Assembly: GCA_030144725.1 (NCBI GenBank)
Contig: JASKMD010000016.1
Span: 1,269,793-1,333,792 of the forward strand
Reading direction: 5' to 3'
DNA length: 64,000 nucleotides
Origin: Haematococcus lacustris
Lineage: Eukaryota > Chlorophyta > Chlorophyceae > Chlamydomonadales > Haematococcaceae
The notes under the pieces were generated by a model. The model was given only the letters and a program-made list of their open reading frames with translations, made no database searches and had not been told where the DNA came from. Below, piece by piece: positions 7,183-64,000 of this stretch. How positions within the stretch are numbered: position 1 is the first letter of the stretch; each line of letters opens with the position of its first letter. A program made the translations under genes and the position numbers.

Positions 7183-7689
7183 ATGCGTGTCGCAACAGGA
7201 GAGATGAATTGGTGGCCGGGGCATTTCCGTGCCGAGCAGCCTTTGCTGCCGTTGGACTGGGCAACTCGCGAATACATCTCAGGTAAGCACGGGGTGCTGT
7301 TTCTTAGTGCGTTCTGCATACAATGTCAACACATGCAACCAAATCTGCTGACCTCCACAGGTGCTTGGCTGTTGTGAAGATCAGCATTAAACCCACAGCA
7401 GCCCAAGGCTCTTCCAAGCTTCAAGGGTACAGTACAAGGGTCTCGTGCACAACACAGCATGTATTTTCCTGCTACTACCGAGGGTGAGCTCATGTGGTCA
7501 ATGACGGCATGTGCTTGTGGTGCACGCATGAGCAACCCCCCTCAGCCGTGTGGTGCACAGTGCCGTGGTTCGATGCCTCTTGAGCCAATGCCCATGCTGC
7601 TAGACAAGGAAGCTGCTAGGCAAGCTGCTTTGAACGCAGAGTGTATTATGTTACAGTTCTGCTTTAAACCTAGTATGCATGTGATTTGA
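7183..7689 (+). pseudogene. Decayed relative of the 2268-3152 transposase-like gene
   Basis: From about 7384 to 7689 the frame contains SRAQHSMYFPATTEGELMWS, TACACGARM and PMPMLLDKEAARQAALNAEC. These align with SRAMHAMFFPADGVAPMWS, TACACVRHM and the following region of the 2268-3152 protein. An upstream frame from 7183 (GEMNWWPGHFRAEQPLLPLDW) ends at a good donor, TCAG|GTAAGC near 7282, and an acceptor TCCACAG is at about 7360, so an intron is plausible. The N-terminal SDG motif and the SAP-like end are absent. It is a 5'- and 3'-truncated relic. Confidence 0.55.
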
Positions 7690-10005: not shown

Positions 10006-10505
10006 NNNNNNNNNNNNNNNNNNNNNNNNNNNNNNNNNNNNNNNNNNNNNNNNNNNNNNNNNNNNNNNNNNNNNNNNNNNNNNNNNNNNNNNNNNNNNNN
10101 NNNNNNNNNNNNNNNNNNNNNNNNNNNNNNNNNNNNNNNNNNNNNNNNNNNNNNNNNNNNNNNNNNNNNNNNNNNNNNNNNNNNNNNNNNNNNNNNNNNN
10201 NNNNNNNNNNNNNNNNNNNNNNNNNNNNNNNNNNNNNNNNNNNNNNNNNNNNNNNNNNNNNNNNNNNNNNNNNNNNNNNNNNNNNNNNNNNNNNNNNNNN
10301 NNNNNNNNNNNNNNNNNNNNNNNNNNNNNNNNNNNNNNNNNNNNNNNNNNNNNNNNNNNNNNNNNNNNNNNNNNNNNNNNNNNNNNNNNNNNNNNNNNNN
10401 NNNNNNNNNNNNNNNNNNNNNNNNNNNNNNNNNNNNNNNNNNNNNNNNNNNNNNNNNNNNNNNNNNNNNNNNNNNNNNNNNNNNNNNNNNNNNNNNNNNN
10501 NNNNN
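10006..10505. other. Assembly gap of exactly 500 N
   Basis: A run of 500 N suggests a placeholder of unknown length. The missing Gag end, protease, reverse transcriptase, RNase H and most of integrase would need roughly 3-4 kb. Confidence 0.95.
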
Positions 10506-28591: not shown

Positions 28592-28629
28592 TCTAGCGCT
28601 GCCAGATTAGTACACCGTTGTTGCCTTGC

Positions 28630-30519: not shown

Positions 30520-30579
30520 GAATCTGCCTGGACTGGTGTAGGATGCAACCTACCAGGCGGGGACCAGCGTGTTGCTAAC

Positions 30580-38524: not shown

Positions 38525-41500
38525 TCAGCTGAACACTCCACATCCTTGCTTGCCCATGTTAAACTGGACTGCTGCCAAGGGCTTGGTGAGAATATCTGCC
38601 AGCATGCTGGAGGTGTGGCAGTAGTGGAAAGCTACCTCACCCCTGCTGATGCGCTCTCTGACAAAGTGGTGGTGCACATCTATGTGCTTAGCCCTGGAGG
38701 TGGCCATGGGGTTGTGCAAGAGCTGAATGGCTGCCTGATTGTCACAGCCCAGGTGCACACAGCTGGCATCCAGCTGCAGATCCCTCATGAGCTTGCGCAG
38801 CCACAGAGCCTCCTTGGCTGCGCTGGAAGCTGCCATATATTCTGCTTCTGCTGTTGACATAGCCACAGTCGGCTGCAGGCGGCTGGACCAGCTAATGGCA
38901 CCCCCATTCAGAGTGAAGATATACCCAGTGGTGCTTCTGGCTGTGTCCTTGTCCCCTGCATAGTCTGCATCAGAGAAGCCCTGCAGCCCTGACACACCAC
39001 CAAACAGGAGTCCTTGATCTGCTGTGCCCTTCAGGTAACATAGCACACTGCAGGCTGCTGCCCAGTGCTGCTTAGTGGGTGCAGACATGTGCCTGGCCAA
39101 GGCGCCCACAGCAAATGCAATGTCTGGCCGTGTGCAGCAGGTCAGGTAAAGCAGACTGCCCACCAGGGCACTGTAATGATGCAGAGTTGTGTCCAATGCA
39201 TCCCCTTCCCTGACTAGCTTAACAGCAGGAGCCATGGGCAGAGGCTTGCTGTGAGCTGCTGACTTGCTGTTGGCTGTAACCAGCTCCTGGATGAACTTGT
39301 GCTGGTCAAGCTTGATGGTGCCCTCAGCCCTGTCTCTGGTTAGCTGCATCCCTAGGAACCACCGTGCCTCACCCAAGTCCTTCAGTTTGAATGCTGAGGA
39401 CAGCTGCTTCTTCACGTGAGCCAAGCCTGCGGTGTCCCCCTGCTGGGTGCACAGAAGGCAGTCGTCCACATACACTAGCAGGTACACCATGCCAGTGCTC
39501 AGCTGCAGGGTAAACAGGGCAGGGTCTGCCTCAGAGGCCTTGAAGCCCATGCTCAGCAGCTCCTCACACAGCCTAGCATGCCACGCCCTAGGGGCCTGCC
39601 TCAGTCCATACAGGGCCTTCTGCAGGCGGCACACAGTGTTAGTGCTGCCCTCCTCAAAGCCCTCTGGCTGCTGCACATAGATAACCTCCCCTGGCTCTAG
39701 CTTGCCGTTCAGGAAGGCTGTCTCAAAGTCTAACTGATGAATCTCCATGTTTTCAGCTGCTGCCTTGGCCAGGAGGGTGCGCAGTGTGGTGTGCTTGCTG
39801 ACAGGTGCATAGACATCTCCTACATCCACACCTGATTGTTGATAGAACCCCTTTGCCACTAGCCTGGCCTTCAGCTTCTCAATGTTCCCTGCAGCATCAC
39901 GCTTCACTTTGAGTACCCATTTGGTAGGCAGCACACGTGCATTGGCAGGACGCTCTTCAAGGCACCATGTTTGGTTGGCATGCAGGGAGGCCAGCTCAGC
40001 ATTCATGGCTTCAATCCACAGGTCTGCCATGGGACCTGCCAGAGCCTCTGCCACAGTGGGTGTGTCATTGACAGGAGAGTCTGACACATTCATGGCAAAC
40101 AAGTCAGAGTCCCTGAACCTCTCAGGTCGGTGCCTCTCTCTGGATGGGTTGCGCCGTGGCACGGGTGCAGCAGGTGCTTCAGGTGAAGCAGGCCGTGGAT
40201 CAGGTGCAGGAGGCATGGGCATAGAGGGGTGCACTGCAGGTGCTGCCTGTCTTGCTGTTGCTGATGTTGGGATCAGAGGAACACGGAGCGCAGGCTGTGC
40301 CAAGCCTGGTCTTGCTGCTGCTGCTGGTCTAGCTGCTGGTGCTGCCGGTCTTGCTGCTGTTGGTGCTGCAGATGATGCTGACGGTCTGACTGCTGCTGGT
40401 GCTGCTGGTGGTGCTGCGGCTGGTGCTGCTGGTCTTGCTGCTGTCGGTGCTGCGGCTGGTGCTGCTGGTCTTGCTGCTACTGGTGCTGCAGATGGTTGTG
40501 CTCCCACTGTCTCCCTGGCTAGAGGCATAGAACGAAAGCTGAATCTGCCTATTCCTGGTCTGGGTAGCTTGCTGATGAGCTCCAGTTGCTGTTGGTGCCA
40601 CATGTGGGAGCCTGGCTCATATCTGGCAGTGAGGCTGACTTGCTGACTGGGTTCTTGCTCACTGGGTGGAGAGTCTGAGCTGCTGCTGTCCTGATGTGCC
40701 CCTACGCCTTCCAGGGGTCTGGACTGTGGTCGCTGTGCACTGCTGCCTGGCCTGCTGATGCTGCTGCTGCTGCTCCCACTGTCCTCAGAGCTACTGCTGC
40801 TGGTCTGCTGCAGACTGTTGCCCCCCTCAGCAGGAGCTGCTGGGGACAGTGGCTCAGAGGGGGTTGTAGGGCTGGGTGGGATGGGTAAGAGAAACACAGG
40901 TTGTGCTGGCTGGTCTTGCTGGCGAGTAGGCTGCAGAACTGACAGCTCGTCAAACACTATGTCCTTGCTGCATGTCTCTCTGCCATTGACCAGTACCCTG
41001 TACGCCTTAGAGCCAGGCTCATAGCCTATGAACAGGCCTTCAACTGATTTGGCTTGCAGCTTGCTGCGCTGGTGATCAGGAATGTGGAGCCAGACTCTGC
41101 AGCCAAACACTCTGAGACCAGACAGATCAGGTTTGACACCGTAGAAGGCCTCCCAAGGTGTGAGCGGCTGGCCTGACACAGGAAGCAGGCATCTGACATG
41201 ATTGGCAAACTTGACAGCATGTGCCCAGAAGCTGAGTGAGATATCGGCTGAGTGGATGATGCTGCGAGCTTTTTCAAAGATGTTTCTGTTCAGGCGTTCA
41301 GCTGCACCGTTCTGCTGGGGGCTGTAGGGGGCTGAGTGCTGGTGCACTATGCCTTTGCTGGCACAGTATTCCCTCATGCGGCTGTTGACGTATTCTGTGC
41401 CATTGTCTGTTCGGATGGCCTTGCAGCGGTAGCCTGACTGGGTCTCAAGCTCTTCAATGACTGTTCTGACTGTGTCTGGCACCTGAGCCTTGCTGCTGAT

Positions 41501-42636
41501 GGGCACACACACAGAAAGCTTTGTGTACTCATCAAGGAAAGTAGCCACATACAGGCTGCCGTCTCTGGCCCTGGCATGCATGGGGCCACAGACATCCATG
41601 TGGATCAGCCCTAGGGGAGCTGTCACTGGTGCTGCATTGGGGGGTGGTCCAGCAAATGCAACATTCTTGTGCTGCTTGCCCTTGACACAGCCCACACACA
41701 CAGCTGGATCTGAGGCAGCTGCTCGGAATTGTGCGGCTGTGACAGGTACACCTGACACCATGCCTGCTGACTGCATGCGTGCCAGAGCATCATAGGAAGT
41801 ATGACACAGGCGCTGGTGCCACACCTGGGGAGAGTTGGAGGTGGTGCTGTTGGCAGAGGGCGCAGGCACGTTGGTCAGGAGCTCCAGCTTTACTCTGGGG
41901 TCAGGCTGTAGAGCTGACTGCTGGATGCTGCCAAACTGATTGCAGCTGATCTGGCACACATCACCACGGAATAGAAAGCTGCTGCCATCGTCTGTTGCAG
42001 CTGTCACTGAGATGAAGTTCTGCTTGCTGTCAGGTACATACAAAGCATGGTTGAGGAACCAGGAGCCACGCTTGGTGCTGAGGAACACACTGCCTGACCC
42101 AACTGCCCAGACCCTGTGGCCCTCAGCTGCCAGCCTTACAGGCCTGTGCTTGTCTGGCGCAAAGGGAGTGTAGTTGTAGAAGAACTGCAGGTCCTTCAGG
42201 ATGTGCTGTGAGGCTCCTGAGTCAATGCAGAAAGGGCTGTACAGGTCGTTGTTGAAGTGTAGTCTGGGCTGCACCATCTGCATGAGGACATCATCAAGAT
42301 CATCATCATCATCATCAGCAGCAGCAGCAGTGGAGCAGGTGAACAGGCTGGCTCCCCTGGATGGGCTCTGAGCTGCTGCTCTGCCAGGGGTCTGGGCCCT
42401 GCCTCTGCTGGGGCTGGATGTCCTGGCTGGGCTGGAGCTCCTGCCTGGACTGGGTCGTCTGCCTGGGCTGCTGGGTTTGGCAGGGTTGCTGAATAGGGTC
42501 CTCATGCGGTTGCGCTGGTCCCTGTCAAAGGTGAAACATTCAGACATGATGTGGCCAGGCTTAGCACAGTAGTTGCAGGTCAGGTGAGCATGTGAGCTGA
42601 CATCCCTGGTGGACCTGTCAGGCGACTGTGCTCTGG

Positions 42637-42673
<37 letters not shown>

Positions 42674-43432
42674 AGGTAGTCTGAACCTGCCCCTGCCCCC
42701 CTGTCCGCCTGAGCTACCAGCCCCCCTGCTATCAGAAGGGGAGGAGTAGGACCAGAGTGAGGATGAGGAGGTGCTGAGTTGCTGCTGCATCTGCTTGCTG
42801 AGTAGGTCAGCCTCCTTAGTCAGCAGCACACGCTTGATGCGCTCGACTTTTAGGTCGGCGCTGGTCTGATCATAGCGCAGCCTTTCGACTGTGCTTTCAT
42901 ACTCAGGCGGTAGGGCTGCTAGAATGGCGAGTACCACTGTGGACTCAGATGTCTCACAGTTGCAGGCTTCCAGCTCTGTAAGCAGCTGCTGCAAACGCGC
43001 ATAGAAGCGCGCTACTGACTCGCCGGGCTCCATGCGCAGGAGACTGAGTTGCTGCTGAAGCTGCGACTGTCGCGCGACTGACGATTCGGTGAACTGAGAT
43101 TCGAGGGTTTCCCAGGCGTCTTGCGCTGAGTCTGCAGACTTGACAGTGAAGATGTGGAGGTTAGAGACGTGCCGCTGGACAAAGGCTTTGGCTTTGCGGT
43201 CCAGCGCGCTGTCCGCGCGAGATCTGGCTAGCTCAGCAGCATACGCAGTCTGCTCTTGCTGAGTGGCGTTAGCTGCTGGCGCGGTGGGTAGGGGGGTGAC
43301 GCCGTCGGCGACGACGGACCAGAGGCCTGCTTCGATTAGCAGGCCTTCGGTGCGGATGCTCCAAATTGGCCAGTTGTCGTCATCGAGAATGGTGGCCTGA
43401 TTGCCGGAGGCTGAAGCAGGAGAAGTTGCCAT
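38525..43432 (-). CDS. Gag-Pol polyprotein of copia element
   Basis: 1,635 residues in one frame from the ATG at 43432. In order: Gag about 1-230 (WPIWSIRTEGLL, then helical UBN2-type region); a polyGln tract near 253-264; CCHC knuckle CNYCAKPGHIMSEC at about 286; protease DSGASQHIL at about 406; integrase with the H..H/C..C finger (WHQRLCH, CVGCVKGK) and catalytic Asp (MDVCGPM, 614), Asp (RTDNGTEYV, 677) and Glu (NGAAERLNRNIFEKA, 714); a long Pro/Ala/Ser-rich linker about 850-1110 with near-repeats; reverse transcriptase about 1150-1400 with YVDDCLL near 1320; RNase H with DADYAGD and AEAEYMAASSAAKEALW. IN before RT defines Ty1/copia. No stop or frameshift; likely functional. Confidence 0.95.
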
Positions 43433-43506
43433 CGCTGATCGACTGGGCTGTCAACCACACGAACCCTAGCCAGCAACTTACTGGAGTCCTATCGCGCGTC
43501 AGCGCG

Positions 43507-49760: not shown

Positions 49761-51722
49761 AAACCATCTCGCTCTCAGCGGTGCTCAGTGCCTGCCCAAA
49801 AGATCGATATTTGAATTCATGCGATTTCGCCACATGCGAGGCGCGCCGCACTAGCACGCTTCGCCACGCTGTTGTGAGTGGCACCTGCAACACGCAGCAG
49901 CAGTCGGAACATGTTTTGCTTTTGGCATGTGGACGCGACGACGGCAGTCGTGACGACTGGATACCACTATGAGCTTTTGGAGCTGCTGCTGGCGCTAGTG
50001 CATTACCGGCTGCTCTACTACGCTTAAACAAGGTGCTAGGTGCAGTACGTGGTGTTGTCTCACCTTGCTTTGCTGCCCTCGACTTGTTAGCTGCAGGTGC
50101 CTCACGCTTACGTGACGTGCTTGCCGCTGCCAGCTGTTGCTGCTGGTGAGGGGGTGCACCAGCAGGCTCAGCCAGCTCAGGGGTGGTGCCTGCATGTGTC
50201 AGCTGCTGCCGAGGGGGCGCAGCTGCGGCAAGCTTCCCACGGATGTGGGTGCACACATGGCTCTGTAGCTTGGGTACCCTCCAGCTCGTGTGTACCTCCT
50301 GCTTGTGAAATTGGAGGTATGACTGAAGCTGCTTTCCTGTCATCTTCATTGCCTCCTCGACTGTTGTGTGGCCAAAATCACGCCCCCCAAAGGCAAGGCC
50401 GCTGCAAGCCGCTCTTGGCACGCATGGTCACCCACACTAACCACAACCCTCCCGACCTTGTGCGCTGCATCTGTGATCTGGCGCTCTGCCTTTGCTGACC
50501 GCTGTGCTGCAGCTGCGGCATCCTCCTTACGCCGCACTTCAGCACGGAGCTGACCCATACGCTGCTGCAAATCATGAGCATCCACAGTCTTCATGGCCTC
50601 CTTGCATGTGCGCAGGGACATCAACTGCAACAGAGCTGGCAGCTCCATGTACCTGCCACCACCATGCTTCAGCAGCTGCAACAAGGACTCCACTGGGGCA
50701 TTGGAGATGGGGCTGGCGAGGTAGTACTGTTCGAGGTGAAGGCACAATGCGGGGCTGCCAGGGTCGCCGTTCACAGCCATGGCACGAATGCCAGATGCAT
50801 ATTGACGCCAAGTGCCATAAGGGTCCTCTTGCTGCTGTTGCTGCTGCTGCTGCTGCTGCCAATCAGCAGCAGCGGCAGCCGTAGCTCGGCATGATACACC
50901 ACATTAAACGCCACTTCCATGAGCGTAGCTTGGTCTGAGCTGCCGAGAGCAGCAAAGAGGTGGGGCAAGGCCATTTGAGCCTGCACATGATCAACTCCAG
51001 AAGTAAGTCCACATAGCACCACAGTGCTCCTGCAAATAGGTCGCAAGCTGCTGCTTCTGCTGCTCGCGCTGATCTGCTGGCTATGCAGACCTGCCAGAAG
51101 GGGCAATGTGTCCCAGGTCCCCAGACAAGCTAGCACATCCTGCCAACCACTCCCCAACCACTGCCACCACGCTGAGCCTGAGCAGCAGGCTGTTGTCCCG
51201 GAGCAGTTGGCTAAGGGTGACAACCCATGGTGGAGACCGACCCTTCTGCCGCTCAAGCAGCTGTGACACTGCATCTCTCGCATGCGCCCAGACGCGCAGC
51301 ATGGACACCGTTGAGCTGATGTAGCTGGCCCAGCGGGTGTCACACGGCACTTGGGGCTTTGTGCCCCATGCTACCATGCCGAGCGGCACCCAATACTACG
51401 CCAGCAAGCTGGCAATGGATTCAATGGCTGGGCAGATGTCACCACCCAATGCAGCTAGCCCAGTCAGCAGTGTGTTGTGTATGCCGTGGCTATAGCAGGG
51501 CTGCGCCCAAATGCAGCCAGCCTGCCCCTTGCTCTGCAGGAGCTTGCTCATGCGGGTGACAACACCACCATATTCACCCATGTTCACAGCTGCACTGTCT
51601 GTTGTGATGCTGGCGATGCAGGCACTGTCGAGGCCGTGGAGGAGCAGCTCCTGCATTATGACCTGGACATGAGCTTCTGCCGTGCCAATAGGCAGGGGGA
51701 TGATAGCCAACACATCACACAA
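49738..51722 (-). pseudogene. Decayed hAT-like transposase gene with SAP-like C-terminus
   Basis: Read on the minus strand: TTDSAAVNMGEYGGVVTRM and WAQPCYSHGIHN (51600-51480) resemble the central D...A.N / C.SHxxHN core of hAT-type transposases. After an in-frame TAG (about 51393) come VPCDTRWASYISSTVSMLR, then, in other frames, PHLFAALGSSDQATLMEVAF (about 50950) and a helical segment at 50780-50346. A last frame from 50421 codes MTGKQLQSYLQFHKQEVHTS + WRVPKLQSHVCTHIRGKL, a SAP-like motif, and a basic tail. Frame changes could be introns or indels; the nonsense codon says pseudogene. The N-terminal part is missing where the retrotransposon begins. Confidence 0.5.
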
Positions 51723-51819
51723 TTCTGGTTTGAAAACTCAACGCAAAATTCCACCGCACCGAAGCGAGCTCTAGACTATCCAACGGCAGAGTCTTACAGA
51801 GCACGTCAGGAGCTGCCGA

Positions 51820-52618
51820 ATGAGCGTCGATTCATCAACCCCGACTTGTACAACGCGCGCTGCACAGGCTATGGATGTTGATGGTAAGCCCAGGAGAAGG
51901 CCTACCGTAATCCTAACCTGTCTCTGGTTGTTGTGCGCGTGTTGGTGCTGGGGTGCGGTAAGCTTGGGTGGCACAAGTGGCCATCCAGCTCCGCACTTGT
52001 CAGGCCAACACGGCACCGTTGAGGGTTCGCCTCACGGTAGCTACGCAAACAACTTTGGCCCCTGGCCAACGTGCACCCATACTAAGACCCCAACTCTCCA
52101 CCACACTGATACCCCCTACGGAATTAGCAACACGGATCGTGACCCTTTCTACCTGACCGCAGCGATCTACAAGTTGACATCGACCTCGGCCGACATGCAC
52201 ACTTTGCTCAGAGCAGCGCTTCCCAAGAAGGCTATCTTCGTTAGCAGCAATGCGACCCACGCCAGCCTCCTCGCCAAAGCGAAGGCCAGCTACAAGAGCC
52301 CAGCCGCCCCGACCATCTCCAGCAACCGTGCTGGGGATATGCGCCATAACAGCTACAGCACCTTGGAGTATGAGGAGGCTATCGCAGCTGTAGTGCGCGC
52401 AGACACTGGAGATGCCGTCCTGGCCCCGTACTTGTTTCTCTACGACACCAAGGCAGTCGTCCTCAAGGACCTCACCGCAGCATTCAAAGAAGGTGACAGG
52501 GCCCCACATAGCAGAGACCTTACTATATGTGGACTCGCACGACGCCCAAAACACCGCCTTCATGTCCCCTGCTGGCCAGATACACGCACAGAACAGACTA
52601 GAAACATACATGGCCTGA
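51820..52618 (+). CDS. Upstream reading frame of the retrotransposon (ORF0-like, frame changes)
   Basis: Protein-like sequence runs in the main frame from about 52140 to 52490 (FYLTAAIYKLTSTSADMHTL, EAIAAVVRADTGDAVLAPYL). It then appears to continue one frame over as KVTGPHIAETLLYVDSHDAQ to METYMA-type end (LETYMA) with TGA at 52616-52618. Before 52135 the alternative frame (from 51968) also looks plausible. This suggests a short ORF of about 217 residues with two compensating shifts, or programmed frameshifting. The ATG at 51820 is the first in the open main frame and is followed by a hydrophobic stretch that may be chance. No family recognised. Confidence 0.35.
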
Positions 52619-52701
52619 CATGCACTTACGTACACAGGACAGGACAGGACAGGACACACACCCTTTTAATACAGAAACACACAAGATTACAATCCCATCA
52701 C

Positions 52702-54636
52702 ATGCCTTCATATGCAGAAACACTGGAGAAGGTGGACAAGGTCTTGAGCAGCATGGGTTGTGAAGACTACACCATCCATGCGGAGACCTACAAGCTTGGG
52801 GGAACGGAGACCTTTGAGCTGCAGATTGAAGCCACGCACGAGGAGGAGGAGATCCGCAGAGCTGGAATGCTAGGGCTGATTGGAGCAACCATCTCCTCAG
52901 GCGGGTTGCTTTCCACCCTCCAGTGCACCCAGCCCCTCACAGCCAGCAGCAGCACGACCACACTGGCCAGGCCCCTCATCTACTTCCCCAAGGCACCCTC
53001 CCCGAGCATAGCCCTTACCCTGAAAATGACCAGCAATGGCTTCCTTAGCGACCCAGCAGCCAACGCTGTCCTAACAAACAGGGGCACAGGTGCTAAAGCC
53101 ATCTCTCTGATCAGAGCCCTAGGTTACCTGCGCCATAAGATGGCCCAGGATGTGTCCCTCCGCAGCCACCCTGTCTACCTGCTGGCATGCTCAGTCCACT
53201 CTGCCCACGACGTGACAAACAGGAGCATGACCAAAGTTGAGTTCACAGACTCTGAAACCTGTGCTGCCATACAGAGCAGCGGTGACCTGCAGATCAGCGG
53301 CAGCAAAGTCAAATTCGCTCTGACTCAGCCTCAGACCAGCAGAGTCAGCGGCCTCGACACCAAGCACTCGCTCGTGCTCAGCACCGCTGCAGGCATTGGC
53401 CTGGCAGGCCTGGCCTCTGTCCTCAAGGCAGTTGCTGAGGCCGAGCTGACCATCCTGGAGGCTGACCTGATCCTGAACGCCACCTACCAGGCAGGCAGCA
53501 CCGCGACCCCGCCTCTCAAAGGCACAGCAGCTACAGCTAGCAATGTCAGCAGTTACTCCGCTACCACTAAGCATGTGTCCCTGGCCAGCAGCAACTCCTC
53601 GTCCATCATCGCTGCAGTTGGGCAGAGCAGCAGGGCTCAGACCACCATCTACCCAGGAGGTGGCCCAGAGCGGGCGGCTATAGTGTACACAGTGGCCGCG
53701 ATGAGCAGCAAGGGCACGCCGATCCAGGACAGCAGCAGGAGGGCCATCACGGTCACTGGACATGACGACAGCTACACAGGCAGCGGAGCCGCAGTGGGCA
53801 CGGACAGCGCCCAGCCCCTGCACCGCAAAGAAAACATGCTAAGGGCAACGTGCTATGTTATGGCCGAAGCTCACCACCTGACCCACACAGACCAGCGCAA
53901 AGCCAACTTCTTCCTGGACTGCAGCCGCCATCTGATGAACGAAGACTGGCAACAGGGCCATGAGGGCAGCCGCAGGGGGGTGGTCATTACCTCCAGCCTG
54001 GACAGGCTGGTGACGCAGTGCCTGCCACTGGTGAAAGCCATGCTGGAAGTTGCAGCCTCCCGCACTGACAGCGCCAGGGCAGTTGCTACCCGCAAGGTGC
54101 AAGACATCTACACCGTCATGGTGGACATCTGCAGCCCCCGCCTGACAGACCCCGCCATTGAGCAGCAGCAGCACCCAACCCCCATGGCGGCCATGCCCAG
54201 GCCACCCATGGGAGTCCCAAGGAGCAGCACCCAGCTACCAGGCCGCGCTCAGTCCGTCACATCCCTGCCACCAAGGGGCGCAGGGTCCAGCAACCGCCGG
54301 ACCAGCGACGAGAGACAGGTCAGAGAATACAAACACACAGGAAACAATTACCTACCTTGCTCCATCGATACAACCAAGCACCTGACCTGCACCACTACAG
54401 CCACACACCACTACGACCAGTGCACCCCCCATAGCAGTGAAACCACATGTCCCTCCCCCCCTCCCCGGTCCCACACTTGCCACACCCATATACCCTCCAC
54501 ACACATCCCTGATCTCGTTGATGCTTGCAGTCCCCAACCAAGCACCCACTCAAGCGCCACAACTCCACCAGCTCCTTTCAGCACCTGGCGGACGAGATGG
54601 AGGGTGTGCAATCGTTGGACCGGCCCTCGGCCTGAC
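52702..54636 (+). CDS. ORF1-like protein of the retrotransposon
   Basis: From the ATG at 52702 (MPSYAETLEKVDKVLSSMGC) about 540 residues of ordinary, well-mixed protein run to about 54318. Visible are EEEEIRRAGMLGL near 55-67, a Ser/Thr/Ala-rich middle and a helical segment around 375-470, then a Pro/Arg/Ser-rich tail. No zinc knuckle or RRM is visible. After ERQ (54318) a GTCAGA donor and a TTGCAG acceptor (54528) would splice to a frame coding PTKHPLKRHNSTSSFQHLAD and DEMEGVQSL, stopping at about 54636. Without splicing the main frame simply stays open into the next ORF. Codon use here is GC-rich, unlike the AC-rich downstream ORF. It could alternatively be an unrelated gene. Confidence 0.45.
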
Positions 54637-54705
54637 CTCTCCACCGAGGTAAAGCAACACCTGGGCTTGTACGCACCAGCGTACACGACACCAACCTACC
54701 TTGAC

Positions 54706-57700
54706 ATGCGCGACACCAACACACACAGACACACAAGTCACCTAGCCGCCCTACCTACCGCCCTACCTACCGCCCCACCTGCTCCCCCTACTGCCCCACC
54801 TGTTGCTGCATCAGTTGCCTCACCAGCTACCCTACCAGCCGCCACACCCGCAGCCCCACTTACTACCCCACCTGCAGCCCCACCTGCTGTCCCACCCACA
54901 GCCCCACCTGCTGCTGCCCTAGCTACAGCATCACCTGCTGCTTCCCCAGCTACAGCACCACCTGCTGCCCCACCTGCCACCCCCCACACCGCCACACCTT
55001 CCACCCCATCTGCTGCCTCACCTGCTGCCTCCCCTGACGTTGCACCGGTAGCCCCACCTACTGCCCAACCTGCCACCTCCCAGGAAACCCTACCTGCCAC
55101 CCCACCCGCTGCCTCACCAGCTGCCTCACCAGCCGCCACACCTGTAGCCCCACCTACTACCCCACCAACCCCACCTGCAGCCCCACCTGTTGTCCCACCC
55201 GCAGCCCCACCTGCTGCTACCCCAGCTGCGGCACCACCTGCTGCCCCATCTGCCACCCCCCACGTCGCCACACCTACCACCCCACCTGCTACCTCACCAG
55301 CTGCCCCCACTTCTGCCACACCTGCAGCCCCACCTACTGCCCCACCTGCCACTTCCCACGCAGACCCACCTGCCACCCCACCAACTGCCTCACCAGCTGC
55401 CCCACCTGATGCCCCAATGTGCAGGAGGGCGGAGACCCCCATGGCAGACAATTGCTGGCAATGGAACTGGACCGACCGCTCGCAGTGCCCTGCGCACTCA
55501 TCCTACATTGATCAATGCCTTGGGGCCAGCTATCAGTGGCTAACTAGACATAAGAATGTAGTAGGAACACCATATAGCAAAAAAGGACGAATGAGGCTGT
55601 GGAATGAGTGGTCTACACCCCTCACCACCCTGGCACCCCGTTATGGTACTATGCCGCACGCCTACGATGTAGCCCAAGGACACCATGTAAATGCAAGCAG
55701 TCAGCAACAGTACCGGGATGAGTCCACCAGCCATGCGCACCACTGTATCCCCACCCACACGGGCAGTGTCATCGACCATCAGAATAGGGTAATAGCCCAA
55801 TTCCTTCTCATTGCGATAGGTACCTACATCCGCAACACAAGCCTCCAACACCGCCACCACCCCACAGCTACGGAATCCAAACGATGCCTAAGACGACACC
55901 GCAAACGACTAGGCTCCTATAGATCCACAATACGAGCCATCGGGTACAATCTAATGACGGGCCTAGACGGCACCCTAGCAGCTTCTAGCTCCCTATGTAA
56001 GCTTTCTAACACTTTCCACCTCTCCACAAATGGAGCCAAGAACGGCCGCCCACACACAGTCTACCAATACAATAGCACCCTCCACGTCTATTGTTGCTAC
56101 CAAACAACACTAGGTGAAAGTAATTGGACCACCTCCACCTTCAACCCCATAGCTGCCGCACGGGCTGTCTACGTGGCCTGGCTCTTACTAGCCGCTGGGG
56201 ATGTTGAAGCTAATCCAGGACCAGAGGTTGCGCACTTTAAGCAAGATAAAGATAGCTCCGCGTGCCAGGTATACTCCCTAAACAATGCTGCGGGACATGA
56301 ATGGGTCACCATGCAAGACATAGACAACTTTTACGAGAACAGGCTCCCTCAGCTAACTGATCACTTTGAGCGGGGCGCATGGCTGATGGCAAGAGGAGTG
56401 GACGGCTACTCCGACGAAGTCATCGAGATGTACTTACGCTCCCACTACGGCCTTGCTGTGCAGAGCATTGCCCAACTCAACCAACCCAGCGACTGGACTG
56501 CTGATAACCTAGGGAACCTCGCTGGCCAATACGGTACACACACCTTTCTGTGCAAGAAGCCAGGCCACAGCATGGCCATGAAGTGCACTAGCGGCGCATG
56601 GCACCTACTGGATTCCTTGAAAACGACAGCCACACCCCTCTTGCACATTCCTGCGGCGACCAAGCAAACTATGCACCAACTATTTGTCATCACGCCTAAC
56701 ATCCGCACACGGGAGCAGATACGCCGGTGTGAGGAAAAGGGAATTTACCACATCATCAGCCATGCGGAACAAGCATGCGACCATGATAGCAACACTACAA
56801 CACCCGGCCCCACACATACACCGATCCACAACCCGGCACAACTCTACATGGAAGGGCAATACGAAGAGTGTTGCCTAGTACATGCATTCAACATGGCCAT
56901 GGGAAAGAAATGCATAGATTACCATGCAGTCATCAGACACTGCAAGCAACTAGCCGAGCACCTACAACATCTAGCACAAGCAGCACGAGATGACGGACAC
57001 ATGATTCGATCCTTCAATACTGATCACATCTACCACGAGAAAGGCAAGTTCTCGTCTGACACACTGAACCACTACCTACACCGCCAGCACCATGAGACGC
57101 ACACGTACCTGCACCCAGCAACAACCTACCTACCAACCCACAGCATCACACCTGAGGTGATCACTACAACTGTTGCCAGCACGGGGGCGACACACACTGA
57201 TGCTGTGATCTTGCTATCACACCACCATGCAACTGTCATTAAACACACACAACAAGGCTGGTACCAGCTGGACTCATTCAACCGTGTGCCAAAACCACTC
57301 TCCACACCTAACGACTGGGGACGCCTCCAAGGGAACTTGCTCACCATCTGCACAGGCAACGTGAGACACACAAGGTTCGTTAGGAGGGAGATCTGGATAG
57401 CGGACCCGTTGGAGGCCACCACCGCATCAGCACTAGCAGCACACTTTCAAGATCACACCGACCCGATCGATCTCACCAACAACCACATAGAGGAAGGAGA
57501 GATACTCGCCCCACCGCCCGTGACCACCATTGACGCCGACAAGAACTCTACACTAGACACCAAGCGCAGCACCACAATAGAGGGCACTCCATTACACGAG
57601 GAACCTGCCCGGTCGCGACAACGCCGGGACATTCCCACTGTTACCCTCCGCCCGCCAGCCCCCTCAGGTAAGCCGCGTACCAACCGACCCACCACGCGTG

Positions 57701-60700
57701 TCGATACCAACACTGGCCCGTCCGCTAAGCGGGTACGAGCCACCAAGGCACACCGCAACGACACGCACACACAAACCCTCATGTCCCAATACCTCTGCAA
57801 ACCTACCGGAGCCCACACCACAAGACTAAACCCCAACATAGCCGAGACACAACAAACCACGCCGGACAATGACCCTCGCACGAGCCAACACAACAACCCC
57901 TCAACCGAACTGCCCCAAGCAACCCTCAACAGGCAACACATCACCCTCACAACCTTCAATGTCAGAGGCCTATGCAGATCTAGAAACGAGGTCCTAAACC
58001 TGGTGCTCAAACATAGCCCGGACATCTTGATCCTCACCGAGACTATGACCCAACCCAAGAGCAACAAACCTAGCTCTGGCTGGCTGAAGAGGGTTATGCC
58101 CAACTACACCGTCCACCGTCACGAAGGCCATAGTGAGGTCCTAATTGGCATCAGACACGACCTAGCTATCCAGATGCAAACCACCATGCTGCCGCCGTGT
58201 ACAGATGCGGATGTGAACACCCGATGCGTCATCCTAAGCCTCCGCCAACGGCAAAGCGAGGAACTCACACTCGTCGCCACGTACTGGCCGTCAGGGAACA
58301 ACGACGACGCGATCCCATTAAGGAGAAAGATGCAAGAACACATACGAACAGCCACTGGACACCTGCCCGGCTCACTCATTCTGGCGGGAGACATCAACGC
58401 CACGATGAAAACAGAGGATCGCTCCGAACACACTGAATACCCACAAGACCACATGATGAGGGAGTTCGCCACGGAGCTGCGCCTATCCGAAGCTGACCCC
58501 GGCGACCGGGCCTGGACCTACCAGCAACCACACTGCAACAGCCGCATCGACGCCATCCTGACGCGCGACGCGAGACAAGGCCCTGGGCATCGCACACACG
58601 TCGACACAAACGCGTACCTCAGCGACCACAGACCGCTCACCGCCACACTCACCACTACCAGACTGGGCATAGATCTAGCAGCCACACATCAACCCTTAAA
58701 ACACAGCCACACCATTCTCACCACCCCAATCACCAACAAGGATAGGGAAGCATACCGGCATGGAGTGCAACAACCCAGTTCAGGCGCTCCACAACTGCAT
58801 GCACAACTGACAGCATACCTAGCTCCCATGTACACAGACGCTACCCACTTCCTGACCACACTAGATAAGGCCGACCCACAACAACCACAACGCCTGACAC
58901 TAGTGGCAGGCCTCCCGGCTAGAGAGGCTGTCGATACCGCAGCCGCCATGCTCACAACGCTCCTGGAAACCTGCAGGGGAACTGCCATGCAGACATGCAA
59001 CACCAAGACATTGACTAGAGGAGGCCAACATTACCAACGCAGGAGCATGTGCAAGATCAGACAGGCACTAGGGAAAAAGCTCAAAACCACCAGAGAACTC
59101 AGCCGGAAGGCTAGAATGTTATTCAAACAAAACAGCGCCCACCCGTCTATCGACGACCTACTCCCAGAGACAGACACGATCAACGCGGAGGTAAGGGAGG
59201 CGGTGCAAGCACGCCAGGGCGACGGTACAACAGAAAATTACGTGCAAGCCGCGCTCGCCCAACTGACCAACTCCTACCGCGACCAAATCCACAAGCTAGA
59301 TGACGACGACTCCGCACTTGCCATTGCACAGGCGCGTCTCAGAATGCAACACCTCATCAGCACCCAACCCAAAAAAGCCAACAAATACATACTACGCCCC
59401 TCTCGCACCGACCACAAAGGACTGCAGGCACTAGCTGACCCCGATACCAAGAACATCTGCACCGCCCCGGCCGACCTCAACCGGATTATCACCGCCGCCT
59501 ATAGACACAAGCTCACGCCGCCGAATCCCAAAACAGGCCACTACACAAACACACAGACCAGAAATTACCCCTGGACCCGCCCCAAAGCCGCGGACCCCTT
59601 CACGTTGCACACCTGCCAAAATATACACTGGATGCACACAGCCATCATGGACAAAGCAGGATTTCAAGAATGCATCAGCAGACTATCTGGGGGCAAAGCG
59701 CCTGGCCCTGACGGCATTGAAAACGAGATCATCAAGATGCTGCCATGGGAGATGAGGGACACCATACACCAACTGTTCATCATCATGTGGGCCACTGGTT
59801 GCACACCCACAACATGGAAAACCAGTGACACCTGCCTGCTCTACAAGGACAAGGGCCAAGAAACAGACCTCAACGCCTACAGACCTGTTGGGCTGGCCAA
59901 TACCATCTACAAACTCTGGACCAGCCTCATAACCAAGGCGCTGTACGAGTATGCTGAGGCTAACGGGATGTTAAGTAACTGCCAAGCAGGCTTCCGCTCC
60001 CATAGGGACACCACACAACAGCTCCAAATGCTGGTCATGGCCCTCGAAGACGCCAAGCTAGCCAAAGTAGATATCTATGCGCTACTGGTCGACTTCACTA
60101 GCGCCTTCAACACCACCTGCCAAGACAAACTGCTATGGATCATGCACGACCTTGGCTTTCCCACCGACGCCACAGACGCGGTGAAGGACCTGTACACGGG
60201 CGCTACAACGCGCTTCAGAACTCCCTACGGCCCCACCGACCCGGTACCTGTAGACCGGGGCACCATCCAGGGCGACTCACTCTCACCTTTCCTGTTCCTC
60301 ATCTACATCGAACCCTTACTGCGCTGGCTCCAAGTAGGAGCGAGGGGGTACAAATTTACATCCGACACAACCGACAGCGCCGGGCGATTTACAATCGGCA
60401 GCATCGACTACGCCGATGACATCGCTATCCTTTGCAACTCGATCAGCAACCTACGCTGTCAGGCAGACAAGCTCTCCGCCTACTCGGATTGGGGCCACCT
60501 AATCGTATCCCACAGCAAAACCCTCGCCACAGCGGCGCTCCACAAAGCGCACCAATCCGGCAGATGCAGCACCATGGCAGAAGCGGAAAAGCAAGCCCGT
60601 AGAGAACTGCAAGCCGTAACGCTACAAGGGAAACCTGTCACCTACCTCAAACCGACCTCCCCCTTCACTTACCTTGGTGTCTTACTTACCATGACGCTCA

Positions 60701-63700
60701 ACTGGAAACCACAACACATAGCCATGATGACACAACTCAGACAGAAGCTAGAAAGACTACGACGCTCATTCGCTAGCGCCAGACAAGCCATCCACATCAT
60801 CAAGACAGCCATCATCCCCAGTCTGGCCTATAGCTTCTGCGTAGCCCCATGCACACCGGGAGACCTAGACCTCTACGACAGAGCTATTAACCAATGTGTT
60901 AAGAAAAAACTCAGACTCCCACTAGGCACACCCAACGCCGTTGTCAGGGAGGACATCGACAAGCTTGGTCTTGGCATCAGCTCAACAGCCAAAGAATACC
61001 ATACCAGAAACACTACAGCCCTCCTACACAGCCTCCAGTCCACAGACACCACACATGCCCACATAACCAGATGCATGCTACACAAACAGATCACTTGGCT
61101 CTACGCTCAAGCTGCCAAGCATGGACACCGCATGTTAATTATGCTTCGACACACCCTACGAGCTAGACAACTCCTACATGCAACCACGGCGCAGCTCACT
61201 GCCACCCAGGAAGGACAAGAACTCTACCCTAAGGAAACCAAACTGCTTGGACAACTCATCACACAGAATACCAGCCCCCTTCCACTCGACATAGTTAGTG
61301 CTTGCATGACGTGCCTCAAAAGCTTGGGCATCCGACATGCCACAGAGCTCCAACACACCATCGCTGGCCATACCTACATCATATCAGGACAGATGCTTAA
61401 AGAACGCTTCCACAACAAAGTCCAACAAAAACACTATATCGCCCTCAACAGATTAACGACCATGGCGACCCAGGACAGATGCCCAACCACAACAGAAGCG
61501 AAAGACATCGCAGCCAAACGAGACACCACCCTAGACCTGCCCGCTGCGCAAAGACTCATTAAACCATGGGCCGCGGGTCTGACGGAGCTCGCACCGACCG
61601 ACGTCGAGGAAGACACAAAACACCGCTACGCTGATATTAGGGCGTACGCGACTGCCAAGAAGACCACACCGACCGAAGCGACGCACGTGACCGGACATGC
61701 AACACAACCCGCAGCCCAGGAGGCCATCAAGAGTAGCTCCCGGCTGCTAAGGCGAGAGAACAGGGAAACCCAATCGCCCCCGACGAAACCCGCCCGACCC
61801 CAGGGCACGAAACGGAACACTGAGGGCAGACAGATACAAACCATCCCGGAGGATATAGTGCACATAATAGGCCTCGACCTCCCAGGGCTCTCCAGCTGGA
61901 AGGTGGATAAAGCCTGCCGATGTAAACCCAAGGACCTAGGCAGCATACTAGGGGCCATGTACGGCCACCAAGAGGCCATCACCAGCATAGATGGATGGCA
62001 ATGGGACGGCATCAACAAAGAAAGCTACTACAAGGTGCATTGGAAGCCCACAATCATAGATAAATGGGCATTACCACTATGTGCAGAAGAAGGCTATACA
62101 CCCTCACACATAGAACCCATCAGCAGGGAAGAGGCTAAAGACGTATGCACATGTGAGCTATGCTGGCTACCAAGAGGAGACAGCCCAACGTGCCACAACT
62201 GCAAGAGGGCCTACCACCCAGCCTGCCTTGAGGAAGCCCTCCTGTCGGGACACAAAGAACCAGGCCACTGGCTGTGCCCAATATGCAAGTTTGGCAGCAA
62301 CGAGTTCAAAACGACTATGCGTCTATCAGCGCACTCGGACCTTATACGAGTTCACTGGCGCCCCACCCTCGAACCGGCACCTCTCATCACGGCACACCTG
62401 GACTACCTGGCGCGACGCAGCGACTATGAAGAGGAAAATAAGAGGATACAAGAAGCTAGATACGCGCGGCCTGACACACAGCTGCCGACACACACCCGGC
62501 AGGGACTGCCGGACCCGCACACCTGGCTACCCCGGTGCACCAACCTTCACTCGAAGGCCATCTTCCACACGTACCCCATCAACCCGCAGACGGACATCGT
62601 CGGGACGGGCAAATGCGAAACCTTCCTCCAACTTCACCCCCACATGACCACCCCCGCGATGAACCCCAGCACGGGAGAGCCCATCATGCCCAAGCACGAC
62701 CTAGTGCAACATGTAACGGTTCACGATGAGTCGGGCCGCACAATAGGCCTTCTAACCAAACAACAACACCAACACCTACACGCTTGGCTACAACACACAC
62801 CACACACACGCAATCTGGCCACAGAACTGGTGGCCCTCCTCAGGAGACAGGACACACAGAGCAGCCGCCACCCCATGAGACTGGCACAAGACAAAGCCCT
62901 CAACACCCTACACACCACACGAAGCTTTCCAAGTACCGTCCAAAGGTGGGCTGATCCACTCACAGTTAGACCAGAAACCACTACCTACTGGAGCCCCGAC
63001 ATCAATGACACGGCCTTTGGGGCACACCACAACTGCCTACTTGTACGCCACACTGGGCTATCCACATGGAATGTACCAGCCGATGATGCGGTGGCCCTGA
63101 AATGCGTCAATCATGCTATACACTCAGCACACCAGGAGGAGGCCATGGCCACCATTATGCTGATCCCTGGTAAGAAGGGCATCTCGTACCCCAAACACAT
63201 TGACACCCTGAGACGCTACCCAGAGTACTGTCAGCACCTGGCCAGCATACCCCTCAACAATACCAACGGCTCCAAACTTGGCAAACACGCCACCCTCCTC
63301 GTTTACGTCATATGGAATGCAGCAGGACAACTACTCACCACCAAAGGCAACCCACAAGGATGGATGGCTAGCACAGCCACTGCCCTACACCCAGACAGGG
63401 AGACACACCCTCTCCTTCGCAGACCACACAATCAAAACCAGCCAGCCACCCTCCCCAGTGGCCACAAACAGCACCTCCGCCTTCCGCTGGACAGGGCTCT
63501 ACCCACGCTGGGGCACACACGCAGCCAACACCAGCTCACGCACCACTCCACCACGCTACCGCGGATGGCCATCACCGAATGGACCACGATAGCGTACACC
63601 GACGGCAGCTGCATTAAGACATCCGAGCCAGACCCGGCGCGCGTCGGGGCGGGGGTCTACATTCCGGAAAGCAACGCCCTTCTTACCATTGCGATGAACG

Positions 63701-64000
63701 ACCCAGAGAACAACACCATCAATAAGGCAGAACTCACAGCGATACACGCGGCACTGAAAGCGGGGGCCAGACGCATCGCCACCGATAGCCTATGCTCTCT
63801 ATATCAGATCCGCCGAGCCCTGGCTAACCCGATGTCCCTCATCAATCATAGACACAACGACATCCTGACGGACATCGCCACTCTCATCATCGACAGCCCC
63901 GTCACGACCCAATTCTACAAGGTCCGGGCCCACTCGGGCATCATCGGCAACGAAGGCGCTGATGCCCTTGCTAAACACGCAGCGCTACACCCGGAGCAGG
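54706..64000 (+). CDS. Non-LTR polyprotein: 2A, Josephin-like protease, APE, RT, PHD, RNase H (partial)
   Basis: The ATG at 54706 is a candidate start; the frame is open upstream, and at least 3,098 codons lie before the window edge. In order: Pro/Ala repeat (54745-55410); 2A-like GDVEANPGP (56197-56223); first protease-like block (PGHSMAMKCTSGAWHLLDSL, 56562-56621); second, Josephin-like block with GQYEECCLVHAFNMAMG (Cys at 56869-56874) and HHHATVIKH...WYQLDSFN (57220-57282); AP endonuclease 57946-58650 (TTFNVRGL, LTETM, LAGDINATM, SRIDAIL, SDHRPL); reverse transcriptase about 59690-60700 (GGKAPGPDG, LLVDFTSAFN, GTIQGDSLSPFLF, YADDIAIL); PHD finger 62146-62286; RNase H from about 63583 (YTDGSC, NKAELTAI, TDS, AHSGIIGNEGADALAKHA). 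All expected catalytic residues are visible. Confidence 0.8.
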   Translation, partial: MRDTNTHRHTSHLAALPTALPTAPPAPPTAPPVAASVASPATLPAATPAAPLTTPPAAPPAVPPTAPPAAALATASPAASPATAPPAAPPATPHTATPSTPSAASPAASPDVAPVAPPTAQPATSQETLPATPPAASPAASPAATPVAPPTTPPTPPAAPPVVPPAAPPAATPAAAPPAAPSATPHVATPTTPPATSPAAPTSATPAAPPTAPPATSHADPPATPPTASPAAPPDAPMCRRAETPMADNCWQWNWTDRSQCPAHSSYIDQCLGASYQWLTRHKNVVGTPYSKKGRMRLWNEWSTPLTTLAPRYGTMPHAYDVAQGHHVNASSQQQYRDESTSHAHHCIPTHTGSVIDHQNRVIAQFLLIAIGTYIRNTSLQHRHHPTATESKRCLRRHRKRLGSYRSTIRAIGYNLMTGLDGTLAASSSLCKLSNTFHLSTNGAKNGRPHTVYQYNSTLHVYCCYQTTLGESNWTTSTFNPIAAARAVYVAWLLLAAGDVEANPGPEVAHFKQDKDSSACQVYSLNNAAGHEWVTMQDIDNFYENRLPQLTDHFERGAWLMARGVDGYSDEVIEMYLRSHYGLAVQSIAQLNQPSDWTADNLGNLAGQYGTHTFLCKKPGHSMAMKCTSGAWHLLDSLKTTATPLLHIPAATKQTMHQLFVITPNIRTREQIRRCEEKGIYHIISHAEQACDHDSNTTTPGPTHTPIHNPAQLYMEGQYEECCLVHAFNMAMGKKCIDYHAVIRHCKQLAEHLQHLAQAARDDGHMIRSFNTDHIYHEKGKFSSDTLNHYLHRQHHETHTYLHPATTYLPTHSITPEVITTTVASTGATHTDAVILLSHHHATVIKHTQQGWYQLDSFNRVPKPLSTPNDWGRLQGNLLTICTGNVRHTRFVRREIWIADPLEATTASALAAHFQDHTDPIDLTNNHIEEGEILAPPPVTTIDADKNSTLDTKRSTTIEGTPLHEEPARSRQRRDIPTVTLRPPAPSGKPRTNRPTTRVDTNTGPSAKRVRATKAHRNDTHTQTLMSQYLCKPTGAHTTRLNPNIAETQQTTPDNDPRTSQHNNPSTELPQATLNRQHITLTTFNVRGLCRSRNEVLNLVLKHSPDILILTETMTQPKSNKPSSGWLKRVMPNYTVHRHEGHSEVLIGIRHDLAIQMQTTMLPPCTDADVNTRCVILSLRQRQSEELTLVATYWPSGNNDDAIPLRRKMQEHIRTATGHLPGSLILAGDINATMKTEDRSEHTEYPQDHMMREFATELRLSEADPGDRAWTYQQPHCNSRIDAILTRDARQGPGHRTHVDTNAYLSDHRPLTATLTTTRLGIDLAATHQPLKHSHTILTTPITNKDREAYRHGVQQPSSGAPQLHAQLTAYLAPMYTDATHFLTTLDKADPQQPQRLTLVAGLPAREAVDTAAAMLTTLLETCRGTAMQTCNTKTLTRGGQHYQRRSMCKIRQALGKKLKTTRELSRKARMLFKQNSAHPSIDDLLPETDTINAEVREAVQARQGDGTTENYVQAALAQLTNSYRDQIHKLDDDDSALAIAQARLRMQHLISTQPKKANKYILRPSRTDHKGLQALADPDTKNICTAPADLNRIITAAYRHKLTPPNPKTGHYTNTQTRNYPWTRPKAADPFTLHTCQNIHWMHTAIMDKAGFQECISRLSGGKAPGPDGIENEIIKMLPWEMRDTIHQLFIIMWATGCTPTTWKTSDTCLLYKDKGQETDLNAYRPVGLANTIYKLWTSLITKALYEYAEANGMLSNCQAGFRSHRDTTQQLQMLVMALEDAKLAKVDIYALLVDFTSAFNTTCQDKLLWIMHDLGFPTDATDAVKDLYTGATTRFRTPYGPTDPVPVDRGTIQGDSLSPFLFLIYIEPLLRWLQVGARGYKFTSDTTDSAGRFTIGSIDYADDIAILCNSISNLRCQADKLSAYSDWGHLIVSHSKTLATAALHKAHQSGRCSTMAEAEKQARRELQAVTLQGKPVTYLKPTSPFTYLGVLLTMTLNWKPQHIAMMTQLRQKLERLRRSFASARQAIHIIKTAIIPSLAYSFCVAPCTPGDLDLYDRAINQCVKKKLRLPLGTPNAVVREDIDKLGLGISSTAKEYHTRNTTALLHSLQSTDTTHAHITRCMLHKQITWLYAQAAKHGHRMLIMLRHTLRARQLLHATTAQLTATQEGQELYPKETKLLGQLITQNTSPLPLDIVSACMTCLKSLGIRHATELQHTIAGHTYIISGQMLKERFHNKVQQKHYIALNRLTTMATQDRCPTTTEAKDIAAKRDTTLDLPAAQRLIKPWAAGLTELAPTDVEEDTKHRYADIRAYATAKKTTPTEATHVTGHATQPAAQEAIKSSSRLLRRENRETQSPPTKPARPQGTKRNTEGRQIQTIPEDIVHIIGLDLPGLSSWKVDKACRCKPKDLGSILGAMYGHQEAITSIDGWQWDGINKESYYKVHWKPTIIDKWALPLCAEEGYTPSHIEPISREEAKDVCTCELCWLPRGDSPTCHNCKRAYHPACLEEALLSGHKEPGHWLCPICKFGSNEFKTTMRLSAHSDLIRVHWRPTLEPAPLITAHLDYLARRSDYEEENKRIQEARYARPDTQLPTHTRQGLPDPHTWLPRCTNLHSKAIFHTYPINPQTDIVGTGKCETFLQLHPHMTTPAMNPSTGEPIMPKHDLVQHVTVHDESGRTIGLLTKQQHQHLHAWLQHTPHTRNLATELVALLRRQDTQSSRHPMRLAQDKALNTLHTTRSFPSTVQRWADPLTVRPETTTYWSPDINDTAFGAHHNCLLVRHTGLSTWNVPADDAVALKCVNHAIHSAHQEEAMATIMLIPGKKGISYPKHIDTLRRYPEYCQHLASIPLNNTNGSKLGKHATLLVYVIWNAAGQLLTTKGNPQGWMASTATALHPDRETHPLLRRPHNQNQPATLPSGHKQHLRLPLDRALPTLGHTRSQHQLTHHSTTLPRMAITEWTTIAYTDGSCIKTSEPDPARVGAGVYIPESNALLTIAMNDPENNTINKAELTAIHAALKAGARRIATDSLCSLYQIRRALANPMSLINHRHNDILTDIATLIIDSPVTTQFYKVRAHSGIIGNEGADALAKHAALHPEQ
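54745..55410 (+). repeat. Pro/Ala-coding degenerate repeat
   Basis: Units of the type GCCCCACCTGCTGCC/CCACCTACTACC, 12-15 bp, code an Ala-Pro-Pro-Ala linker of about 220 residues. The unit length keeps all frames open, including a long spurious minus-strand frame. Confidence 0.85.
56197..56223 (+). other. 2A-like ribosome-skipping motif
   Basis: The frame codes GDVEANPGP, a full match to the 2A consensus D(V/I)ExNPGP, preceded by a hydrophobic Leu/Ala run (YVAWLLLAA) as usual for 2A. Known 2A peptides release the chain between Gly and the last Pro, so translation would yield the leader ending in NPG and a downstream protein starting with Pro at 56221. It splits the Pro-rich leader from the protease and endonuclease-RT part. 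Confidence 0.8.

Follow-up and report, generated by a model that had tools for sequence, protein, structure and literature searches.

Sites of the 2A (StopGo) type in non-LTR retrotransposons were reportedly described by Heras in 2006 and by Odon in 2013, in the trypanosome elements L1Tc/Ingi and in animal APE-type LINEs, and the clades of the 2013 work are said to be Rex1, Crack, L2, L2A, CR1 and Ingi, with Dualen/RandI not among them. The occurrence of 2A in L1Tc, Ingi and animal APE-type LINEs is also cited in PMC4981915 and PMC12846837 (both in excerpt). StopGo is otherwise common in RNA viruses and rare in cellular genes, and there is no evidence of its natural use by plant viruses (PMC12846837, in excerpt); the 2A peptide of FMDV has been put to use in the chlorophyte Chlamydomonas (PMC3427385, in excerpt). 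Among the viral sites, an L-rich class (motifs 2/6) ends in (A/S/C)G before the Asp at p12 and is associated with Ser at p15, and one of its representatives was active in vitro; the F2A structure given in this 2026 study shows an L-rich cluster inside the exit tunnel, with bonds from 28S rRNA to Asp, Glu and Asn (PMC12846837, in excerpt). The Dualen/RandI LINEs, described with both endonucleases (PMC4640811), are known from chlorophytes (PMC8226300), and non-A 3' repeats are listed for 8/8 green-algal RandI families (PMC3747384, Table 3), these three sources being likewise taken in excerpt.

Here we consider a motif of this kind in Haematococcus lacustris. The window, meaning the whole stretch of 64,000 nucleotides that was analysed, very likely holds a functional 2A (StopGo) recoding site in the single open reading frame (ORF) of a Dualen/RandI-like non-LTR retrotransposon.

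Layout and placement of the element

The element is bordered by a 13-base direct repeat, TAGCCAACACATC, which we read as its target-site duplication and which therefore sets its extent at 51717 to about 65096, that is about 13.4 kb (Table 1). With the duplication at both ends, the element inserted as one unit. By blastn, a 5' end at 51718 or 51719 (51719 in two copies) is common to L010, L011, L012, L019 and L027, and the flanking DNA differs in four of these five copies, the flank of L027 not being among them; the 3' end near 65097 is common to L028. The element terminates in (TCT)n, and no LTR is present at the element ends inspected. An RT together with an endonuclease, a 3' simple repeat, a target-site duplication and many dispersed copies are the features of a non-LTR retrotransposon. 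In L027, two copies of the element stand head to head near 7210 (blastn orientation switch at 7209/7210).

Table 1. Features of the element and of its open reading frame (numbers are window positions, continued past 64000 where the feature lies beyond the window)
Feature	Position	Strand	Remarks
5' target-site duplication copy, 13 bases, TAGCCAACACATC	51704..51716	+	direct repeat
Retrotransposon	51717..64000 in window, on to ~65096	+	blastn ends and target-site duplication
Single ORF	from first ATG 51820, to 64000 in window, stop 64986 beyond	+	no internal stop codon
N-terminal domain	52714..54324	+	24-25% identity in L020, L026, P0030, P0022
Pro/Ala/Thr-rich tandem-repeat linker	54739..55416	+	
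Hydrophobic stretch (55789-55845), then basic and GxDGT domain, just before 2A	55789..56121	+	
2A/StopGo island, WLLLAAGDVEANPGP	56179..56223	+	predicted skip: Gly (56218-56220) / Pro (56221-56223)
Josephin-like domain 1	56263..56619	+	Cys (56263), His (56566), Asp of LLDS, invariant in 10 sequences
Josephin-like domain 2	56857..57306	+	Pfam PF02099; invariant Gln-x4-Cys, His (57226), Asp of LDS
AP-type endonuclease domain	57952..58629	+	Pfam PF03372, E 4e-11
Reverse transcriptase domain, YADD at 60409-60420	59869..60681	+	Pfam PF00078, E 6e-22
PHD-finger-like zinc motif	62152..62286	+	PF00628, E 0.0044, below curated cut-off
RNase H domain	63586..63984	+	PF00075, E 7e-16
CCHC motif	64339-64389, beyond window	+	read in L009
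Candidate PD-(D/E)xK nuclease	64606-64695, beyond window	+	read in L009
3' target-site duplication copy, TAGCCAACACATC	65097-65109, beyond window	+	read in L009

The stop-to-stop frame begins at 51775, exits the window and counts 4403 codons, of which 4,388 follow from the first ATG. In several related copies the frame stays open for 4,400-5,825 codons, a length that is unusual for a LINE. The domain order is an N-terminal module, the hydrophobic/basic domain, 2A, two Josephin-like domains, AP endonuclease, RT, the PHD-like motif, RNase H, CCHC and RPD...EIK. The preliminary description spoke of an algal non-LTR retrotransposon with an AP endonuclease; the AP endonuclease and the RT are indeed present, but the element goes beyond the plain APE type, since it further carries an RNase H and, at its C-terminus, a CCHC together with a PD...ExK motif. 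Among solved structures, the best relatives of the RT are R2 proteins (2e-25), then LINE-1 (1e-12). In an alignment of 5 rows, C-x2-C-x7-H-x4-C and RPD are invariant and EIK is the majority form. The candidate C-terminal nuclease had no match among solved-structure sequences or in NCBIfam, and its structure model (pLDDT 39) is too poor to use. As AP endonuclease, RNase H and a candidate restriction-like endonuclease make up the Dualen/RandI layout, we place the element as putatively Dualen/RandI-like, by layout alone and with the candidate second nuclease included.

An Rfam search of 51500-64000 gave no match. Elsewhere in the window we noted a Copia-type LTR retrotransposon polyprotein on the minus strand (38528-43450; open for 1641 codons, with gag, integrase and RVT_2) and, on the plus strand, a Gypsy-type element (28597-34479) in which a 640-codon ORF with no Pfam match is followed by a 1320-codon pol-like ORF carrying protease, RT, RNase H, integrase and chromodomain. 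A run of 500 N at 10006-10505 is an assembly gap or a withheld stretch.

The motif, its neighbouring domains and the predicted products

The window translation places GDVEANPGP at 56197-56223 on the plus strand, inside the long open frame as the preliminary description had it, and directly preceded by AVYVAWLLLAA, so that the hydrophobic lead-in claimed there is real; the AP endonuclease likewise lies about 1.7 kb downstream, its Pfam match starting at 57952. The octapeptide agrees with the form (D/G/C/N)(V/I)ExNPGP given for 2A/StopGo in the excerpted text of PMC12846837. Six-frame translation of the window gave one further NPGP, which lacks DxE and lies on the minus strand.

Upstream of the motif, the N-terminal domain had no Pfam match and no meaningful NCBIfam match, a fold search returned nothing below E 0.1 and the model reached a pLDDT of 57.5. 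Some related NCBI models (P0001, P0008, P0009) have other tandem repeats in their N-terminal part, and since the repeats thus differ among related families, this part of the protein appears modular.

Downstream, the second part of the frame begins with two Josephin-like domains that were absent from the preliminary description. Domain 2 matches PF02099 at E 6e-11 (42.9 bits against a cut-off of 26), or at E 4e-13 when a 409-residue piece is used. A Pfam search of 56215-57441 alone gave two Josephin stretches, one of them only at E <= 10, and domain 1 was unmatched in the wider search; with Pfam support this weak, the main ground for domain 1 is the conservation of its Cys, His and Asp. Residues C67, H168 and D183 of domain 1 and Q265, C270, H388 and D403 of domain 2 are invariant in 10 sequences, and by analogy with ataxin-3 we take the Cys, His and Asp to be catalytic. 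The Cys of domain 1 sits 14 residues past the StopGo Pro. When PDB chains were searched by phmmer with the Josephin region, the matches were weak throughout, to viral capsids (best E 0.04) and to Josephin-2 (E 0.42), and those to capsids were taken as chance.

The interpretation given to the locus earlier, that two proteins would be made from one frame by predicted skipping, is supported. According to this reading, the nascent chain WLLLAAGDVEANPG would stall the ribosome while Gly occupies the P site, and the chain released would end the upstream protein, composed of the N-terminal domain, the Pro-rich repeats and the hydrophobic and basic segment. Elongation would then resume at Pro and give a second protein, which would start 14 residues ahead of the Cys presumed catalytic in Josephin-like domain 1 and carry the two Josephin-like domains, the endonuclease, the RT, the RNase H and the candidate second nuclease. 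We infer the skip itself, the two products and their roles from the sequence; StopGo would in this way yield ORF1-like and ORF2-like products and a clean N-terminus for Josephin-like domain 1.

Selection on the island and alternative readings

Over the 15 codons of the island WLL(L/M)A-x-G-D(V/I)E-x-NPGP (-7 to +7), pN/pS was 0.123 in 12 families (bootstrap over families 0.091-0.162), and over the 18 codons before it (-25 to -8) it was 0.995 in the same families, all these ratios being rough, as synonymous sites are close to saturated (pS about 0.7). The families share less than 90% identity over 33 residues and were built from 98 fetched motif-bearing copies, two copies without the motif being left out. 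A wider set of 19 families gave 0.073 in the island, 1.02 on its upstream side and 0.67 downstream, and the conserved run stops abruptly at the final Pro; this set, like the set of 11 sequences of the window's own group, includes loci sampled by the motif, and there the core is fixed by the sampling. Residues W, L, L, A, D, E, N, P, G and P of the island are unchanged in the 12 families, while their codons vary synonymously (Trp has one codon), which indicates that the peptide is what selection keeps. At p13, the second residue of the octapeptide, V or I is found, and at p15, the fourth, A, P, E or V; on the sequences compared, the variable positions of the island match the pattern of tolerance expected of StopGo peptides. 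Judged by these ratios, the motif is kept nearly unchanged by selection across families whose adjacent sequence changed freely.

The island also lies in frame between two coding segments under selection. Among the 11 sequences of the window's group, pN/pS was 0.36 for the adjoining upstream codons (-110 to -27), and 0.22 and 0.28 for Josephin-like domains 1 and 2. In this same comparison the 18 codons before the island gave 0.68, the hydrophobic stretch 0.80 and the region preceding it 0.76; at 0.76-0.80, the remainder of the upstream product is weakly constrained in the window-group comparison. Coding constraint is therefore found on both sides of the island and is weaker further upstream.

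The motif is widespread in the host genome (308 Mb), where a DNA pattern for DVE-x-NPGP, with x restricted to the codons that the pattern allows, gave 155 + 204 = 359 matches, versus 1 + 0 for the reversed pattern. At 22/22 distinct motif sites inspected, a Josephin-1 motif follows within 70 residues (the search string accepted Tyr for Cys, as found in the damaged copy L007). We also looked for related copies that keep the rest and lack NPGP, sampling through the downstream Josephin region in order to avoid sampling by the motif itself. Results showed D(V/I)ExNPGP directly upstream in 127/129 copies, drawn from 310 rows listed (49/102, 40/106 and 40/102 for three Josephin-region queries from divergent families, each scoring the best ~102 of 822-879 candidates). 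By coordinates, the motif adjoins all 29 first-query matches on contigs reached by the motif list, that is by the first 100 of the 359 places, the window copy included; by sequence, it was present in 59/60 upstream stretches fetched for the first two queries and in 39/40 for the third. These 100 fetched copies were hand-chosen among rows with a match start no later than query residue 10, and rows starting later (e.g. 49-406, 64-406, 101-406, 155-406) were left out because their upstream end may be missing. Copy L076 has a nonsense codon within the motif, which reads NP-stop-P, and in L090 the upstream DNA is unrelated and the motif is absent; a stop stands six residues past the motif in L118, and Ala replaces the Gly before Asp in L088. 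What we observe is purifying selection confined to the island, a single frame and presence of the motif in independently sampled copies.

Of the other explanations, the one that survives best, although it is unlikely, is a dual use in which the hydrophobic lead-in and 2A would be mainly a signal or membrane anchor, with 2A setting the share of downstream protein that retains the anchor, as has been described for sea-urchin NLR proteins. Such 2A peptides doubling as signal sequences have been reported (PMC4981915, in excerpt), and when the separate 19-residue stretches of the ORF are ordered by hydrophobicity, IAAARAVYVAWLLLAAGDV comes third. However, 2A lies about 1450 residues from the first ATG, hence not N-terminally; the residues before W, though many are hydrophobic, vary freely (pN/pS 0.995); and a plain anchor would not need the charged core DVE-x-NPGP, which is the part conserved.

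That the upstream region is an intron or UTR, and not translated with the rest, is quite improbable. This is what several NCBI gene models of Haematococcus imply, as P0005, P0021, P0029 and P0036 are without 2A or without the start of the first Josephin-like domain, and the weak constraint on the far-upstream regions (0.76-0.80) would agree with it. On the contrary, the fetched upstream part is free of stop codons in 98/98 motif-bearing copies, the domain adjoining 2A is constrained (0.36), many copies are open for more than 3,500 codons, exceeding the part after 2A, and the canonical D(V/I)ExNPGP is present in 15/37 database proteins, including 14 of the 15 with the Josephin-1 motif. The four gene models are probably mis-spliced, and proteome surveys may therefore miss the motif in them.

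We give still less weight to a conserved proteolytic or structural sequence that works without skipping, such as a cleavage site of the Josephin-like domains. Self-cleavage by an encoded protease is common in polyproteins, and a cysteine-protease-like domain does start soon after the motif, with its Cys 14 residues on; but conservation falls on the StopGo positions, leaving p13 (V/I) and p15 free, past the final Pro the conservation breaks off, and to our knowledge Josephin proteins are deubiquitinases and not polyprotein proteases. Finally, a chance motif spread by copying in a repetitive genome would explain why copies of one family have it by common descent, but is practically negligible against 12 families of less than 90% identity that keep it with different codons, a pN/pS of 0.12 in the island versus 0.99 adjoining, 127/129 carriers among copies sampled by another domain and 359 matches versus 1 for the reversed pattern.

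Comparison with known StopGo sites, LINEs and Josephin proteins

With StopGo as the preferred reading, the mechanism itself would be known, and its host lineage, its element group and its tie to Josephin-like domains would set the locus apart. In the open-licence PMC literature, among the matches listed, we recognised neither a report of 2A in green-algal LINEs nor a transposon-borne Josephin domain; two key surveys (Odon 2013, Rao 2025) lie outside this scope, and the latter, as told in the excerpt of PMC12846837, surveyed viral and cellular proteomes and could contain Haematococcus sequences. Haematococcus lacustris proteins match the element at up to 98% identity. Protein searches for relatives outside Haematococcus, covering the best ~8,000 candidates by common words, found no close one, the search being weak there so that other algae may hold some, and a scan of viral contigs found no relative of the element. 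The matches not filed under H. lacustris were P0017 (no source given), P0004, P0039 and P0040 (Bosea sp.) and P0041, a weak match to a fern LINE RT (E 3e-9, 8% coverage). Bosea belongs to the alphaproteobacteria, and the three entries under its name are pieces of the element or its kin, probably through Haematococcus contamination of a bacterial bin.

If true, so many proposed sites, diverse among families and under strong conservation in a green alga, would bring both the green lineage and a further LINE group into the natural range of StopGo. Algal biotechnology would gain numerous natural variants as candidates, all with the Trp-Leu lead-in fixed, and a clean test would be possible of how single-ORF LINEs make ORF1-like and ORF2-like proteins. 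The link with Josephin, a deubiquitinase-like domain, also raises the question whether ubiquitin signals, either on the element's own proteins or on restriction factors of the host, are edited by the element. A wider proposal is more tentative, and our confidence in it stays somewhat under even: StopGo may be an ancestral and essential part of the dual-endonuclease (Dualen/RandI-like) green-algal LINE lineage, among the first natural cases in green plants, where a tandem Josephin protease would owe its native N-terminus, close before the catalytic Cys, to StopGo, which would also uncouple the upstream part, since free to swap or expand N-terminal modules and repeats by family.

Compared with the Josephin deubiquitinases of the ataxin-3 family, the element has the PF02099 match and the Gln-x4-Cys in domain 2 and the Cys-His-Asp set in both domains; it differs in that the domains form a tandem pair within a retrotransposon, that the profile match of domain 1 is weak and that the N-terminus of domain 1 would be set by StopGo. 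Like L1Tc/Ingi and the animal APE-type LINEs, it is a non-LTR retrotransposon with an in-frame D(V/I)ExNPGP, but its host is a green alga, it carries RNase H, CCHC and a candidate second nuclease, and Josephin-like domains follow its 2A.

With the Dualen/RandI LINEs of Chlamydomonas and other core-Reinhardtinia it has in common the AP endonuclease upstream of the RT, the RNase H, the C-terminal CCHC and RPD...EIK motifs of the candidate second nuclease, the chlorophyte host and, as in RandI, a 3' end made of a non-A simple repeat, here (TCT)n; it also has 2A and Josephin-like domains, neither of which is mentioned in the excerpts of PMC4640811, PMC8226300 and PMC3747384. As for the L-rich viral class (PMC12846837, in excerpt), the island resembles it in the lead-in W-L-L-(L/M)-A-(A/S/C/G)-G followed by D-V/I-E-x-NPGP, the context being judged by resemblance. 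Against a full fit, only A, P, E and V were seen at p15, never Ser, and the algal island further differs from the viral class by an invariant Trp seven residues before the Asp and by residing in a non-viral host element.
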